Shown: piece after piece, positions 45,195-53,146 of the stretch
Layout: every line of letters starts with the position of its first letter
Position numbering within the stretch: the first letter of the stretch is position 1
NCBI RefSeq assembly: GCF_003325355.1
Contig: NZ_CP030850.1
Span: 930,001-994,000 of the forward strand
Length of the DNA: 64,000 nucleotides
Direction of reading: 5' to 3'
From: Runella rosea
GTDB lineage: Bacteria; Bacteroidota; Bacteroidia; Cytophagales; Spirosomataceae
Translations under genes and position numbers: made by a program
The notes under the pieces: model-generated
What the model saw: the letters and a program-made list of their open reading frames with translations, nothing else
Databases searched by the model: none
Told to the model about the DNA's origin: nothing

Positions 45195-46232
45195 ATGGAT
45201 AGCCCCGACGACCGAAAATTACTCTTACTTGGCCCTTTAGCTCTCTGGACAATTTCGACGATTTTCTTTAATCTAAACATGTTCAACGGGGTCGTGCCTT
45301 CGTTTAAGTTTCTGATTTTCGGGCTACTTTCGGTCTATTTTACTTGGATTTTGGTGCGTTTTTTGGTCTTTCGTGTACGGAGACGTTTTCAGGGTATCCC
45401 CAACACCCGCAAACGAATTTTAACGCTCATTGCGCTGATGTTTCCGGGAACCGTGGTCGCGGTGGGCTGTCGGGTCATTGCCCTCAAGTATTGGGTTTAT
45501 AAGGACACCGCACTCACCGACGCCGACATCGACGTTTTGTTTATGACTGGGCTGAGTTTTTTCAACTTTACCATCATTTATTCCCTCTACGAAAGCCATT
45601 ATTTTTTTCAGCAATGGAACATCGTCAATCGGCAGAAGGAAGAACTGGCCCGTGCCAATTTGGAAATGCAGTTGGACTCCCTGAAAAATCAAGTCAAACC
45701 CCATTTTTTATTCAATAGCCTCAATGCCCTTCAGGCGTTGGTCAAAACCCAACAGACCCAAACGGCCATGAAGTTTATTACCGATTTGTCGCAAGTATAT
45801 CGGTATTTGTTACAAAGCAACGAGCAGACGCTCATTTCGCTCCAAAAAGAACTTGATTTTATGCACGCCTATTTTAGTCTGCTCAAAACCCGGTTTAGCA
45901 AGGGGCTGCATCTGGAAGTGAAAGTCAATCCGCAATGGCACAATTACCAGCTTCCGCCCATGACGTTGCAGCTTTTGGTTGAGAATGCGGTCAAACACAA
46001 CAAGGTGTCAAGCCAAAATCCATTGACCATCAAAATCGAAAGCGTCGAAGAGGCTTATATTCAGGTCTCGAATAATTTACAACGCAAAAACAATGACTCG
46101 CTGCCAACCACCAAAAAAGGCCTTGTCAGTATCAGTGCCAAATACGAATTATTGCAACTTCCGCCCATTGATTTGTACGAGGATACCGAAAATTATATCG
46201 TCAGAATTCCGCTCATTAAACCCCAAGAATAA
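45195..46232 (+). CDS. LytS-type sensor histidine kinase (first of three paralogues)
   Basis: The 345-residue kinase has four hydrophobic segments in the first 140 residues, then NQVKPHFLFNSLNALQ with H170 as the phosphoacceptor, N-box VENAVKHN, a second NN in QVSNNLQRKN and KKGLVSISAKYELL as G-box. It overlaps the LytTR gene by one base (TAATG), so the pair is translationally coupled. It shares the three-residue-block layout with the kinases at 48406 and 49977. It is downstream of the beta-lactamase-fold lipoprotein. Confidence 0.88.
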   Translation: MDSPDDRKLLLLGPLALWTISTIFFNLNMFNGVVPSFKFLIFGLLSVYFTWILVRFLVFRVRRRFQGIPNTRKRILTLIALMFPGTVVAVGCRVIALKYWVYKDTALTDADIDVLFMTGLSFFNFTIIYSLYESHYFFQQWNIVNRQKEELARANLEMQLDSLKNQVKPHFLFNSLNALQALVKTQQTQTAMKFITDLSQVYRYLLQSNEQTLISLQKELDFMHAYFSLLKTRFSKGLHLEVKVNPQWHNYQLPPMTLQLLVENAVKHNKVSSQNPLTIKIESVEEAYIQVSNNLQRKNNDSLPTTKKGLVSISAKYELLQLPPIDLYEDTENYIVRIPLIKPQE

Positions 46233-47008
46233 TGAAAGTCGTCATTATCGAAGATGAAGAATTGGCCGCCGAACACCTCAAAGTCATGGTCACGGAAATT
46301 GACGCCAACATTGAAGTAGTGGCGATGTTGGAGAGTGTCGATAGCAGCGTAGAATGGTTTCGTACGCACCCTGCGCCTGATTTGGCACTCATGGACATTG
46401 AGTTGGCCGACGGACAAAGTTTTGAGATATTCAATCAAATTCAGCTTAAATGTCCCGTCATTTTTACGACAGCCTACGACGAATTTGCCATTCAGGCCTT
46501 TAGAGTAAATAGCATTGATTATTTGCTCAAACCCATCGAAGAAGATATGCTCCGACAAAGTCTTCGGAAATTTCAACACTTACGAAAAACGTTTGGGGCA
46601 CTCGAAAACACCCTAAATTTGGACGAATTAAAAGCAATGCTCACCTCGCAGAAGCAGGTCAGGCCCAATTACCGCGACCGTTTTTTGCTCAAACAAGGGA
46701 CCAAATTGTTACCGCTCCGGGCGGAAGACATTGCTTATTTTGAAAGTAAAGAAGGACTTACGTTTGTTAAAACCCGCGATAAACGTTCTTATTTGATTGA
46801 ATATCCGCTCGAAGAATTGGAAACGATGGTCAATCCTAAGGCATTTTTCAGGGCGACTCGGCAGTATTTGGTGGCGCGGCAATCCATCGACAAAATTCAG
46901 GTTCATCTCAACGGTCGCCTCAAAATCACGCTTAAACCCCTCACCGAAGATGAATTAATTATCAGCCGTTACAAAGCACCTGAGTTTAGGGCGTGGATGG
47001 GAGAATAA
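46232..47008 (+). CDS. LytTR response regulator (first paralogue)
   Basis: The 258-residue regulator has a receiver domain with acidic pocket IIEDEE and phosphoacceptor D55 in ALMDIELADG, then TAYDEFAIQAFRVNSIDYLLKP and a C-terminal LytTR domain (DIAYFESKEGLTFVKT, FFRATRQYLVARQSID). It is coupled to the kinase gene upstream. It resembles the regulator at 51046 closely, with a 23-base identical DNA stretch (46403-46425 and 51217-51239), so the two arose by duplication. Confidence 0.9.
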   Translation: MKVVIIEDEELAAEHLKVMVTEIDANIEVVAMLESVDSSVEWFRTHPAPDLALMDIELADGQSFEIFNQIQLKCPVIFTTAYDEFAIQAFRVNSIDYLLKPIEEDMLRQSLRKFQHLRKTFGALENTLNLDELKAMLTSQKQVRPNYRDRFLLKQGTKLLPLRAEDIAYFESKEGLTFVKTRDKRSYLIEYPLEELETMVNPKAFFRATRQYLVARQSIDKIQVHLNGRLKITLKPLTEDELIISRYKAPEFRAWMGE

Positions 47009-48141: not shown

Positions 48142-48405
48142 AGATAGTTTGAAAGGAAAATGATTCTTGCCGTAAAAGTACAACTTACTACTTTACCTAC
48201 TACAATTTCTTGGGGGTTTGAATTCCCGACATCCTCAGAGCGAATAGAATCATTGGCTTAGGCCCTCTCACAATTCAAGCGGTGTTTTTCTCAATTCATT
48301 CATAAAAATCTCGAAATAAAGGCCGATGATTTCCTTGTTTAGAAAATTGCCCCTTATCTTCATCCCGCAATGCATTATGGCAACATCATGTAATTTAACC
48401 TAAAC

Positions 48406-49980
48406 GTGTTTCGACCCCGCTTTTTTTCACCTGCTGAGTGGCGCTATCATCTGCTGATGATGCCGTTGCTGTTTACCATCGGCAACTATTTCTTCATCGG
48501 AATGGATTATTTCCGTTCTCGGGATGCTTTTATCGCGGGTACAGTCGTGATTTGCGGGCTTTATTGGTTCTCTATTGTGTTGCTGACCATTGCCATTCGA
48601 AAAGTGCGCGCCATTGTTCCCGAACAGTTTATTCTTAGGCGCATCCTTATTATGATGGCTGTAGTAGGAGTGCTGACTGGATTATTGGCCATTTTTGATG
48701 TATGGGTGTATAGCCTAATTCCGCGTCTTTCTATCCCCTTCAGTTGGGCCAAAGTAAAACCTATTTGGATATTGGGAGCCGTGTTTGACGTTTTTATTTG
48801 CGTTGCCCTGAATTTGTTTTACTCGGAGTCTTGTCGAAAAAAAACACTCCAAACCGTGCGCCCAAACTCGTCGCCTATCAACACTTCTTCAAAAATAGAC
48901 GGCCGCTTAGCGCTTACTTATCAGGGATGGTGGTCGGGAGTGAGTCCGCTTGAATGGGGTTTTCACGGGTTGGTCTTATTGATGTTGGTTCCGTTGACCA
49001 ATTACCTGATTATTGGTCCAAATTATCTATCCGACCCATTGCTGCTTAGCCTTGGCTCAGCGTTGGTCGTGATGCTGTACATGCCTTGCGCCGTTTTATT
49101 GACCTTGTCGGTTCGGCTGGCCATTCGTACTTTTCCGCTTCTTCGTCAAACCCTTTTTCGGGTATTGTTAATGCTTTTACTGACTGGGACGGTTTCTTCT
49201 ACGGCCGTAGTATGCTCGTTGTGGGTCATTAGTGAAATTGACATATTTGGCGTTACATTTTCCATCATGACAGCCAAAGCGTTCATTCTGTTGGGGTTAT
49301 GTTTTGATTTTTTGCTTTGCCTCACCCACGGTTATTTCTACGCTTTATCCATGTGGCAACAAGAACAGGTAGAAAAGGAGACCCTCAAAAATGAAGCACT
49401 CCAAAGACGCTACGACACCCTGAAGGGGCAGGTAAATCCGCATTTTTTATTCAACAGCCTTACCTCTCTTTCATCCTTGATTCAGGAAGACGTAAAACAG
49501 GCCGAAAAGTTTGTGGATGAACTTGCTAAGGTCTACAGGTATTTGCTCCAAACCCACCAAAATCCACTCACCACACTCGAAAAAGAAATCAACTTTATCA
49601 ATTCGTACGTCTTTTTGCTCAAAATACGCTACGGAAATGGCATTTCAGTCACAATTGACGTCGACAATACCGAAAAATCGGGTTATTTGCCGCCACTTAC
49701 CCTGCAAATGCTACTTGAAAATGCCATGAAAAACAATACGATTTCGTCCAAAAAACCACTGAATATACTCATTCGAAGCACCGACGAAGGCCAATTAATG
49801 ATTCAGCACACGATTCAAAAACGAATGGTCAGCATTGCAGACCCGCAAGCTGAATTAACCAATCTAGTTGGTAAATATACCTTCTTGACGGCAGAGCCCG
49901 TTTCCATGTTTGACAACGGCACAACTTTTACGGTACTCCTCCCCTTGTTGCCCAATTTGACCGTCAGCGAAGATAGATGA
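48406..49980 (+). CDS. LytS-like kinase with duplicated membrane module and eroded ATP site
   Basis: A GTG start gives 524 residues, about 180 more than its neighbours. Residues 8-146 and 179-318 are two copies of the same membrane module (SPAEWRYHLLMMPLL against SPLEWGFHGLVLLML). The kinase domain keeps H346 in NPHFLFNSL but the N-box is ENAMKNN (residues 438-444) where the paralogues have ENAVKHN, the second NN is replaced by HT, and the G-box glycine of QIGLSNI is lost (QAELTNL). It overlaps the next kinase gene by four bases, so the two are likely produced together. Catalytic activity is doubtful. Confidence 0.85.
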   Translation: MFRPRFFSPAEWRYHLLMMPLLFTIGNYFFIGMDYFRSRDAFIAGTVVICGLYWFSIVLLTIAIRKVRAIVPEQFILRRILIMMAVVGVLTGLLAIFDVWVYSLIPRLSIPFSWAKVKPIWILGAVFDVFICVALNLFYSESCRKKTLQTVRPNSSPINTSSKIDGRLALTYQGWWSGVSPLEWGFHGLVLLMLVPLTNYLIIGPNYLSDPLLLSLGSALVVMLYMPCAVLLTLSVRLAIRTFPLLRQTLFRVLLMLLLTGTVSSTAVVCSLWVISEIDIFGVTFSIMTAKAFILLGLCFDFLLCLTHGYFYALSMWQQEQVEKETLKNEALQRRYDTLKGQVNPHFLFNSLTSLSSLIQEDVKQAEKFVDELAKVYRYLLQTHQNPLTTLEKEINFINSYVFLLKIRYGNGISVTIDVDNTEKSGYLPPLTLQMLLENAMKNNTISSKKPLNILIRSTDEGQLMIQHTIQKRMVSIADPQAELTNLVGKYTFLTAEPVSMFDNGTTFTVLLPLLPNLTVSEDR

Positions 49981-51065
49981 AATTATCATTGAAGCATATT
50001 CCCCTGCCTGGTTTTCGCATACGACAACAGACCAAACTGCATTTTTTGCTGTTGTTTTCGTGGTTTATTCCATTACTTACCTTTTGGATGGTTGGCCCCG
50101 ACTATCTCAACAAACCCTTTGTTTTCATTGCAGCTACCAGCCTTAATCTTAGCATAGCGGCAACATGCCTCATTACCCTCGACTATTTTACGCAGCAAAT
50201 CATTCAACGATATCCCGACCTCAACCAGACCAAAAAACGGGCAGGGTGGTTGCTCTTTACCTTTATGATTATCACTCCAATATTCATTTTGGGGGGTATT
50301 TTCTTGTACGATTATTTTCATCTGTTTGGCTATCATCACAATCCCCGCATTACCATACAAATTTTCATCTTGAATATCGGCGCAAACCTCCTTTCGGTAG
50401 GAATCGACGAAACGGTGTACTCTATTCATAAATGGCGGGAAAACGCACTTGAAAAAGAGAAATTGCAACAAGAAAACCTACAAAGTCGATTTGATAGCCT
50501 CAAAAGTCAGGTTAATCCACACTTTCTTTTCAACAGCCTAAATTCGCTTTCGTCATTGATTGCCGATGAGCCCGCACAGGCCGAGATTTTTGTGGACGAA
50601 ATGGCCAAAGTATACCGCTATTTACTGCAAACAAATTCGCAGGGAGATCTGACCACTTTGGCCCATGAGCTCAAATTCATTGAATCTTATTTTCACCTGC
50701 TCAAAACCCGCTACCGAAACGGTATTCATTTGGAAGTTAATATTCCAGCGGCTTTTTATTCTTACCAAATTCCACCATTAACCTTACAAATACTGGTCGA
50801 AAATGCGGTAAAGCACAATGTCATTGTGGCAAGTCGCCCTTTACATTTGGAAATAACGGGACTGGACGGTCATTTCTTGCAAGTTAGAAATAACCTCCAA
50901 CGCAAAAATACCCGCGTAGCATCCAATCAAATCGGCCTATCAAACATCATGGCCAAATATCAATTATTAACCCAATCAAAACCCGTTATTACTGACCATG
51001 ATGGGTTTTTCACCGTTGTATTACCCCTAATTGTTGCGACGAAACATGAACGTATTAATCGTTGA
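49977..51065 (+). CDS. LytS-type sensor histidine kinase (canonical)
   Basis: The 362-residue kinase has four to five membrane segments in the first 150 residues, similar to each half-module of the preceding protein (LFSWFIPLLTFWMVGPDYLNKP), and then NPHFLFNSLNSLSSL with H182, N-box VENAVKHN, NNLQRKN and QIGLSNIMAKYQLL. All boxes are intact. The ATGA start overlap with the gene before and a 20-base overlap with the regulator gene after it indicate a tightly coupled three-gene unit. It can phosphorylate the LytTR regulator or support the degenerate partner. Confidence 0.88.
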   Translation: MKLSLKHIPLPGFRIRQQTKLHFLLLFSWFIPLLTFWMVGPDYLNKPFVFIAATSLNLSIAATCLITLDYFTQQIIQRYPDLNQTKKRAGWLLFTFMIITPIFILGGIFLYDYFHLFGYHHNPRITIQIFILNIGANLLSVGIDETVYSIHKWRENALEKEKLQQENLQSRFDSLKSQVNPHFLFNSLNSLSSLIADEPAQAEIFVDEMAKVYRYLLQTNSQGDLTTLAHELKFIESYFHLLKTRYRNGIHLEVNIPAAFYSYQIPPLTLQILVENAVKHNVIVASRPLHLEITGLDGHFLQVRNNLQRKNTRVASNQIGLSNIMAKYQLLTQSKPVITDHDGFFTVVLPLIVATKHERINR

Positions 51066-51819
51066 AGACGAAGAATTGGCCGTAAAAAAACTGCAAAAAT
51101 TAATTGCCGAGGCAGACGCATCGCTCACCGTGGTGGGCATTACGGCCAGTATTGAAGAATCGGTCGATTGGCTCGAAAACCACCCCGCCCCCGACCTGAT
51201 TTTTATGGACATCGAATTGGCCGACGGACAAAGTTTTGAAATTTTTGAACAGGTCGATGTGCAAAGCACTGTTATTTTCACTACCTCTTATGATGAGTAC
51301 GCCTTGCAAGCCTTTAAGGTCAACAGCATTGATTATCTGCTCAAACCGATTCAAAAGGAAGATTTACAAAGAAGCCTGAAAAAATTGCGCGATTTGCGCG
51401 GAAATCAACAGGCAGAGGGCGTGCCGTTTAGCATAGAAAAATTAATCAAAGAATTGCAGTTGCAACAGCAGCCTGTTGAGTTTCGGAAACGATTCTTGGT
51501 ACGACAAGGCCAACGATTGTTGTCTATCGAAACCTCAGAAATTGCGTATTTCTTTACCGATGAACGTTTTAGTTTCTTCAAAACGCACAACAATCAAAAA
51601 TTTCTGGTTGAATATACCCTCGACGAATTGGCGGAAAACCTCGACCCGTACCAATTCTTTCGGATAAGCCGTAGCGTGATTGTTACGCACCAAGCCGTCG
51701 AACAGATTCAGCCTTATTTTGGCAATCGATTGTCCTTAAATTTACACCCGACTTTCGAGAAAGAGGCCATTGTCAGTCGGGAAAAAGTGAGTGATTTTAA
51801 AAAATGGATGGGTAAATAA
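51046..51819 (+). CDS. LytTR response regulator (second paralogue)
   Basis: The ATG at 51046, which lies inside the end of the kinase gene, gives 257 residues starting MNVLIVEDEELAVKKL. The receiver has D55 in FMDIELADG, and TTSYDEYALQAFKVNSIDYLLKP; the C-terminal LytTR domain contains EIAYFFTDERFSFFKT and FFRISRSVIVTHQAVE. It is a duplicate of the regulator at 46232. The target genes are not identifiable from this window. Confidence 0.9.
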   Translation: MNVLIVEDEELAVKKLQKLIAEADASLTVVGITASIEESVDWLENHPAPDLIFMDIELADGQSFEIFEQVDVQSTVIFTTSYDEYALQAFKVNSIDYLLKPIQKEDLQRSLKKLRDLRGNQQAEGVPFSIEKLIKELQLQQQPVEFRKRFLVRQGQRLLSIETSEIAYFFTDERFSFFKTHNNQKFLVEYTLDELAENLDPYQFFRISRSVIVTHQAVEQIQPYFGNRLSLNLHPTFEKEAIVSREKVSDFKKWMGK

Positions 51820-52408: not shown

Positions 52409-53146
52409 CTACTTATTTTCAATGATTTTCAAAAAACCAATAACCGTTTGATTAATAATAGATTGCTGTACTTCTCGCGTAATTGTGGCGTTGTCGTCGC
52501 CCAATTGTGAACCGTAGTAACCAAATTGAGCGTGGTTTCCGCCCTTGATTCCAACCCATTGTGTGTTGGAAGGCAATTTCCCTTTATTTTCAAAAACTTC
52601 GGGCAGACTCGCCAAACCGTCATTTGTGGCGTAGAGTTTTACGACTGGCAATATAAACGAAGAAAGGTCAATGTCGCGCGGATGCGAGGTTCCCATCAAG
52701 ATTAATCCCGCGAGTACGTTTTTATTTTCGTACGCAAATTGGGCCGCCATTTTGCCCCCCTGAGAATGCCCCGCCAACACATAGCGCTTGGTGGTATCAG
52801 TCAACGAAAACAAAGTTTTGATTTGTTGATATCCCCGCGTTGCCATACGCCAGGGCATTTTAATGATGTGGCTCTCAAAGCCCGCATCGGCGGCATGGCG
52901 CGCAATGGGTGCGTACGCTGAAGGCTCCACCAAAGCGCCCGGGAAAAACAACAAGACCGTTTTTCTCTTTGTCATGGGGCTAAATGAAATAAGCTGTTTG
53001 GTTACAGTAACGGTTGTCTGCGCAGTTGAAGTAAGCGTGTTTGCAGGCAAGTTTCGGGTTTGATACGAAAGCCAGTTCCAAAGTGTAAACGTGCCAACAA
53101 GGCTAAACCAAACAAGTCTAAACCAGTTTTTCTTCGATATTTTCAT
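52409..53146 (-). CDS. Signal-anchored alpha/beta hydrolase
   Basis: The 245-residue protein has an N-terminal hydrophobic anchor (residues about 8-25, WFRLVWFSLVGTFTLWNWL) and an alpha/beta hydrolase core: LLFFPGALVEPSAYAPIA, nucleophile elbow GHSQGG with the serine near residue 130, and VGIKGGNHAQFGYYG with the catalytic His. It resembles dienelactone-hydrolase-like esterases; the substrate is unknown. It is alone on its strand next to the metE leader. Confidence 0.75.
   Translation of the reverse strand: MKISKKNWFRLVWFSLVGTFTLWNWLSYQTRNLPANTLTSTAQTTVTVTKQLISFSPMTKRKTVLLFFPGALVEPSAYAPIARHAADAGFESHIIKMPWRMATRGYQQIKTLFSLTDTTKRYVLAGHSQGGKMAAQFAYENKNVLAGLILMGTSHPRDIDLSSFILPVVKLYATNDGLASLPEVFENKGKLPSNTQWVGIKGGNHAQFGYYGSQLGDDNATITREVQQSIINQTVIGFLKIIENK

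Follow-up and report, generated by a model that had tools for sequence, protein, structure and literature searches.

Why should a bacterium maintain a histidine kinase that carries two sensor modules and has lost residues of its ATP site, directly ahead of a second kinase that retains them? The question is raised by a locus in the window, a stretch of 64,000 nucleotides from Runella rosea (contig NZ_CP030850.1, positions 930,001 to 994,000 of the forward strand), in which gene order and motifs place two kinases, one of them degenerate, and one regulator in a single run of genes. The 4-base overlap (49977-49980) between the double-sensor ORF and the gene for the 362-aa sister kinase, already given in a preliminary description of this DNA, was recovered at the same coordinates, and the sister kinase gene in turn overlaps that of the LytTR response regulator (51046-51819). 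The features of this cassette are listed below in window coordinates.

48406..49980, plus strand: degenerate double-sensor LytS-type histidine kinase, 524 aa, GTG start (PF06580, E 1.7e-23)
48427..48843, plus strand: sensor module 1, residues 8-146 (dN/dS 0.13-0.19)
48844..48939, plus strand: inter-module linker, residues 147-178 (dN/dS 0.22-0.45, the fastest-evolving part)
48940..49359, plus strand: sensor module 2, residues 179-318, homologous to module 1 (dN/dS 0.02-0.07)
49360..49665, plus strand: coiled coil and DHp domain, residues 319-420 (dN 0 in three species pairs, dS 0.25-0.29)
49441..49443, plus strand: phospho-acceptor His346 in PHFLFN
49666..49953, plus strand: CA (catalytic/ATP-binding) domain, residues 421-516, degenerate (dN/dS 0.17-0.21 vs 0.03-0.07 in the sister)
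49717..49737, plus strand: N-box ENAMKNN, with E438, N439 and K442 retained and His replaced by N443
49807..49812, plus strand: Asn pair replaced by H468-T469, by comparison with the sisters
49852..49854, plus strand: G-box Gly replaced by E483, by comparison with the sisters
49977..51065, plus strand: intact sister kinase, 362 aa, with ENAVKHN, NN and G all present
51046..51819, plus strand: LytTR response regulator, 257 aa from ATG 51046 (PF00072, PF04397)

That a membrane module is repeated within the protein, as had been claimed, is borne out by alignment: residues 8-142 of module 1 match module 2 with 30% identity over 136 positions and one gap (E 7e-17). By hydropathy at a cut of 1.5, strongly hydrophobic segments number three in module 1 and four in module 2, and about four helices per module appear in a low-confidence full-length model, which at a mean pLDDT of 49.8 was too poor and was excluded from matching. 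The double-sensor kinase matches no Pfam sensor model, 5TMR-LYT among them, at E 1 or better. Relatives of module 1 beyond Runella are mostly single-sensor kinases, and the nearest unfused relative of module 2 is the second kinase gene of genome G073 (42%).

Beyond the sensors the protein scores 83.1 bits against PF06580, for which the curated cut-off is 25.2, and it carries the LytS-type acceptor motif with H346; the complete ATP site of the subfamily (ENAxKHN, NN, GL) is missing. An alignment of the three kinases of the window agrees with the earlier observation that H346 is kept and that three changes set the ATP site apart from those of the sisters at 45195 and 49977. Both sisters retain the N-box His, the Asn pair and the G-box Gly, and relative to them ENAVKHN has become ENAMKNN, NNLQ has become HTIQ, and the GL of the second G-box has become EL. 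The same description had called this ATP site probably dead; the residue losses stand, but "dead" overstates the sequence evidence because E438, N439 and K442 of the N-box persist. The sisters are, to judge from their motifs, themselves non-canonical. Down to E 1, Pfam HATPase models detect none of the three kinases of the window, and on a manual reading the sisters' G1 motif NNLQ falls at the position of DNGVG in GanS, a segment that the HMMER alignment treats in part as an insertion.

GanS of Geobacillus stearothermophilus (6swj, 6swk) is the closest solved DHp-CA structure by two routes: it is the only credible solved match of a profile of sister-type kinases (E 1.7e-33), and it is the best solved match (E 2.7e-9) of a DHp-CA model of the double-sensor kinase (pLDDT 75), which was used for the fold alone and has the histidine-kinase fold. 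Their G-boxes differ, with DNGVG and GIGL in GanS against HTIQK and AELTN in the Runella protein.

One answer to the question would be that the gene is in decay, the remnant of a fusion that is turning into a pseudogene. Its CA domain does evolve faster than that of the sister, with 9 nonsynonymous and 13 synonymous changes between the window and R. aurantiaca against 2 and 18 in the sister (Fisher p 0.035); the corresponding comparison with Runella sp. CRIBMP gives p 0.19, and the excess over the sister's CA domain is modest. Against decay, a survey of relatives for the GTG-start fusion, which had been proposed earlier, finds it again in two more Runella, R. aurantiaca YX9 and CRIBMP (93% identity), as full-length copies with open frames, the same start and the same changed residues. 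The DHp domain shows no nonsynonymous divergence at all, module 1 lies far below neutral (p 4e-7, with the nonsynonymous share assumed to be 0.76), and the same class of gene is present in a third of the sampled family genomes, so that decay is very improbable. Sequencing error was rejected as well: three full copies, that of the window among them, have an uninterrupted frame, and a partial copy from a Runella MAG stays open to the contig end. The double-sensor gene is thus a maintained gene and no recent accident, and it combines a maintained absence of ATP-site residues with selection on the remaining protein, which is one of the features expected of a histidine pseudokinase.

The same type of kinase can be followed through the family if partners of the sister kinase are grouped as a class by similarity of their sensors and not by motif. 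With search thresholds of E 1e-4 and E 1e-7, tallied over 150 family genomes, the module-1-type sensor is found in 50 genomes, three of them (G039, G046, G095) by weak matches alone (E 4e-6 to 5e-5), and the sister-type sensor in 55. Both sensors co-occur in 49 genomes, the sister type stands alone in 6, neither is found in 94, and the sole genome with the partner only is a MAG with a contig end inside the gene. Runella itself has module 1 in 4 of 13 genomes (one a partial MAG) and a full-length sister in 3 of 13. Fused and cut-off cases aside, the module-1 matches of the family lie in open frames of about 345-450 aa. Of the 53 partner genes in the loci read, counting fused ones, 44 are followed on the same strand by a sister-type kinase no more than 400 bp away (in two cases with another kinase between), and the regulator belongs to the same run in 31 of the 53; among the nine partner genes with no sister at that distance, one has it at 517 bp. 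The regulator of the window shares 74-78% identity with its counterparts next to the kinase pairs of G052, G073 and G069, which represent two genera; the stretch of G132 that was read held no close relative of it.

How far the ATP site has changed in this class can be seen from a survey of 145 kinases, taken from ORFs of more than 300 aa in the window, L060, L061, L083-L122 and L133-L152, with identical sequences entered once and near-copies counted apart, and with shorter kinase ORFs (such as 3581 of L099) and L001-L059 left out. The acceptor His is present in all 145, among them 49/49 unfused and 4/4 fused partners. At the N-box Glu, however, 48 of 49 unfused partners have Asp, whereas Glu is kept in 49/51 sister-type and 40/40 other kinases. 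The N-box His is found in 33/49 unfused partners, against 51/51 sister-type kinases and 36/40 others; the first Asn of the pair in 44/49, against 49/51 and 39/40; and the G-box Gly in 27/49, against 51/51 and 40/40. The near-fixation of Asp at the N-box Glu makes it a class feature and not a product of random decay. Asp at this position, and Tyr or Phe at that of the N-box His, occur in active kinases of other families.

The ratio of CA to DHp identity points the same way, being 0.777 (0.73-0.82) in partners and 0.910 (0.88-0.93) in sisters for the 39 of 44 pairs that remained once pairs of at least 95% identity were dropped. The DHp domain of the partners is also less conserved than that of the sisters (mean identity 0.585 vs 0.711), so the faster evolution extends to the partner class in its entirety. 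As a class the partners, fused or unfused, have a relaxed ATP site; L115 and the second kinase of G073 fall in the same core clade as the partners, yet their motifs are intact.

These patterns bear on a second answer, in which the double-sensor protein is still an active kinase, perhaps weak or Mn-dependent, that works as a homodimer, with two kinases feeding one regulator in parallel. The retained E438, N439 and K442, the purifying selection that persists on the CA domain and the histidine-kinase fold of the model are all in its favor, and so is BtsS, a LytS-type kinase that functions despite odd motifs and autophosphorylates better with Mn than with Mg, according to the available portion of PMC10653868. 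The partners and sisters also show no sign of co-evolution, same-operon pairs being no more alike than cross-genome pairs (DHp excess 0.002, p 0.23; CA p 0.43; 27 of 44 pairs kept after those of at least 80% identity were dropped). What speaks against two parallel active kinases is that Runella lost the G-box Gly and both Asn residues identically in three species, that the relaxation extends across the partner class, and that one partner is naturally truncated in its CA domain: L109:5838-6854 in G064 ends before the ATP lid, and no remnant was seen on reading the three forward frames as far as the gene that follows. Taken together, this answer appears unlikely, though it deserves serious consideration.

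A third answer would have the protein act as a regulator that accepts no phosphate: bound either to the sister or to the response regulator, it would adjust kinase or phosphatase activity in the manner of RetS, DivL or the ChrS pseudokinase. Roles of this kind are reported for inactive kinases in the accessible parts of PMC9491836 (and, for DivL, of PMC4211667), and the degenerate CA domain does persist. However, the acceptor His is kept without exception in fused and unfused partners, and a pure scaffold would not need it: scaffolds can function without an acceptor His, since the ChrS pseudokinase did not need its own, as the same portion of PMC9491836 has it. A purely regulatory role is accordingly rather improbable. 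The likeness to ChrS, DivL and RetS/GacS lies in an inactive or atypical kinase steering another kinase; unlike the Runella partner, the ChrS pseudokinase arose from a frameshift in laboratory evolution, and none of the three is described, in the text available for them, as a family-wide partner class with a retained acceptor His.

The explanation that accounts best for these observations, and to which about an even chance might be given, is that the double-sensor gene encodes the degenerate partner in an asymmetric two-kinase system that works with a LytTR regulator, the partner's His being phosphorylated by the intact kinase within a heterodimer. Histidine kinases are homodimers as a rule; here the two kinases would most likely heterodimerize via their DHp domains, and the CA domain of the intact kinase would phosphorylate H346 of the partner, perhaps along with its own His. 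The phosphate would then move to the LytTR regulator, and the partner would thereby contribute one or two sensory inputs. Gene order, conservation, selection, co-occurrence and the relaxed ATP site are observed here; co-transcription, heterodimer formation, trans-phosphorylation and a loss or weakening of ATP use are inferred. In favor of this reading are the co-occurrence and adjacency of the two kinase types, the invariant acceptor His and the wear of the ATP site, together with the truncated partner and the Fas precedent; against it count the negative co-evolution result, the lower conservation of the partners' DHp domain, the N-box residues left in Runella, the example of BtsS, the nine partner genes with no sister at close range and the intact motifs of L115 and the second G073 kinase. 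The preliminary description had likewise proposed a degenerate partner beside an intact sister, with which motifs and gene order agree, and a second sensory input, which stays plausible as its role.

By extension, and with somewhat less assurance, a whole LytS-type lineage of Spirosomataceae might be seen as the obligate CA-degenerate subunit of a heterodimeric kinase, the partner supplying sensing and the acceptor His and the sister supplying ATP and catalysis, with some lineages gaining a second sensor by fusion and so arriving at a three-sensor receptor for one LytTR regulator. The pair of degenerate and intact kinase in about a third of the sampled family genomes provides intact, worn, fused and truncated partners as natural variants, which could show how asymmetry arises in kinase dimers and how several sensors come to feed one regulator.

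A parallel might be struck with FasBCA of group A Streptococcus, where a locus likewise holds two kinase genes and one response regulator. Unlike those of Runella, the FasBCA kinases belong to a different family, being AgrC-like. As in the reading proposed here, one kinase of that system is a proposed pseudokinase whose acceptor His is needed; it also shows a specific two-hybrid interaction: in the available part of PMC12675982, the HATPase domain of FasC is dispensable, its H246 is required, and FasB and FasC interact. FasB/FasC/FasA is the nearest experimental case to the Runella pair; the same portion of that paper describes sensor-kinase heterodimers as rare and makes no mention of a double sensor or of family-wide motif loss. 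The Runella proteins also resemble BtsS/BtsR and YpdA/YpdB (PyrS/PyrR) of E. coli in the LytS-type core, the PHF acceptor motif, the membrane-integral sensor and the LytTR regulator. BtsS is a 7-transmembrane receptor with a 5TMR-LYT domain, and these systems, unlike that of Runella, name one kinase per regulator, with no degenerate partner described, as far as the available portion of PMC10653868 extends. Among the matches listed in the open-licence literature, no description of this kinase pair in Runella or its relatives was seen.

The origin of the double sensor is informed by G073 (L104), where four genes follow one another with successive 4-base overlaps: a kinase with module 1, a kinase with module 2 and intact motifs, a sister-type kinase and the regulator. 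Among 390 genomes of the order, six have a fused double-sensor gene: the three Runella with full copies, G052 (another genus of the same family) and G172 and G187 (another family), each of the latter three being followed by sister and regulator. In a core tree of the 108 rows kept after those of at least 85% identity were dropped, one group (SH-aLRT 99) takes in the partners, the fused kinases and the second G073 kinase, with one sister-labelled row, L087_5039, inside the partner clade, and is separate from 28 sister-type rows (97). More careful trees combined the partners of the core tree with a selection of sister-type rows and five further rows. The module-2 sensors of all six fused genes form one clade (96/83). 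The module-1 sensors of Runella and G172/G187 form another (99/95); the best tree splits the full set of six, though a single clade is not rejected (p-AU 0.386). The kinase cores disagree, grouping G172/G187 with unfused partners and Runella with G052 (96/90), because of which one fusion with later core exchange or two fusions would both fit.

Within the fused lineages, only Runella has changed the N-box His, the first Asn and the Gly, while it has the Thr of the Asn pair in common with G052; some unfused partners carry single changes of the same kind. Fusion followed by erosion, as first proposed for this gene, therefore holds in part: the joining of sensors from two kinase genes fits the unfused tandem genes of G073. 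A recent local fusion with subsequent erosion was rejected, since unfused partners are degenerate too and the fusion is common to G052 and to G172/G187, whose fused copies retain the N-box His and the G-box Gly.

Less canonical kinases are also seen elsewhere in the surveyed stretches. A LytS-type kinase outside the partner class (L086:7407-8471, G015) has lost the N-box Asn (LFEQIISQN), and the tandem kinase pairs L088:6724-8783, L090:2505-4648, L086:13407-15511 and L091:2253-4342 set a less canonical N-box (ENALRLN, ENAIRYN, ENAVRYN and ENAVRHN) beside an ENAVKHN kinase. From these motifs, asymmetry in tandem kinase pairs may be recurrent. G052 has a second tandem pair (L201:5044-7236), one member of which is sister-type; both keep ENAVKHN and the G-box Gly, and NT replaces the Asn pair.

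The cassette itself is flanked by an oxidoreductase gene on one side and, on the other, by a gene that from its sequence we take to be Fur-like. In Runella G003 both flanking genes are direct neighbors, about 200 bp apart, so the cassette is missing there; in G006 they lie 2.2 kb apart with no cassette match between them, and in the G010 stretch the Fur-family gene alone of the two was found. A second kinase and LytTR pair at 45195-47008 of the window ends 1.4 kb before the cassette, and nothing matching it was found near the Fur-like gene in the stretches read from G003, G006 and G010. Neighboring genes gave no functional clue, no family being present in more than 8 of 43 loci compared, and nothing was inferred from them.

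The 100 bases 5' of the GTG start (48306-48405) are 93-98% identical without gaps in four Runella, as expected for close relatives, and no regulatory site was identified in them; a 25-codon upstream reading frame, noted on reading the sequences by eye, was dropped, as a stop interrupts it in MAG C1. Beyond the cassette, a 245-aa hydrolase-like gene occupies 52409-53146 of the window, at a place where two related Runella have shorter ORFs alone (L060:9006-9374 and L061:9006-9377).
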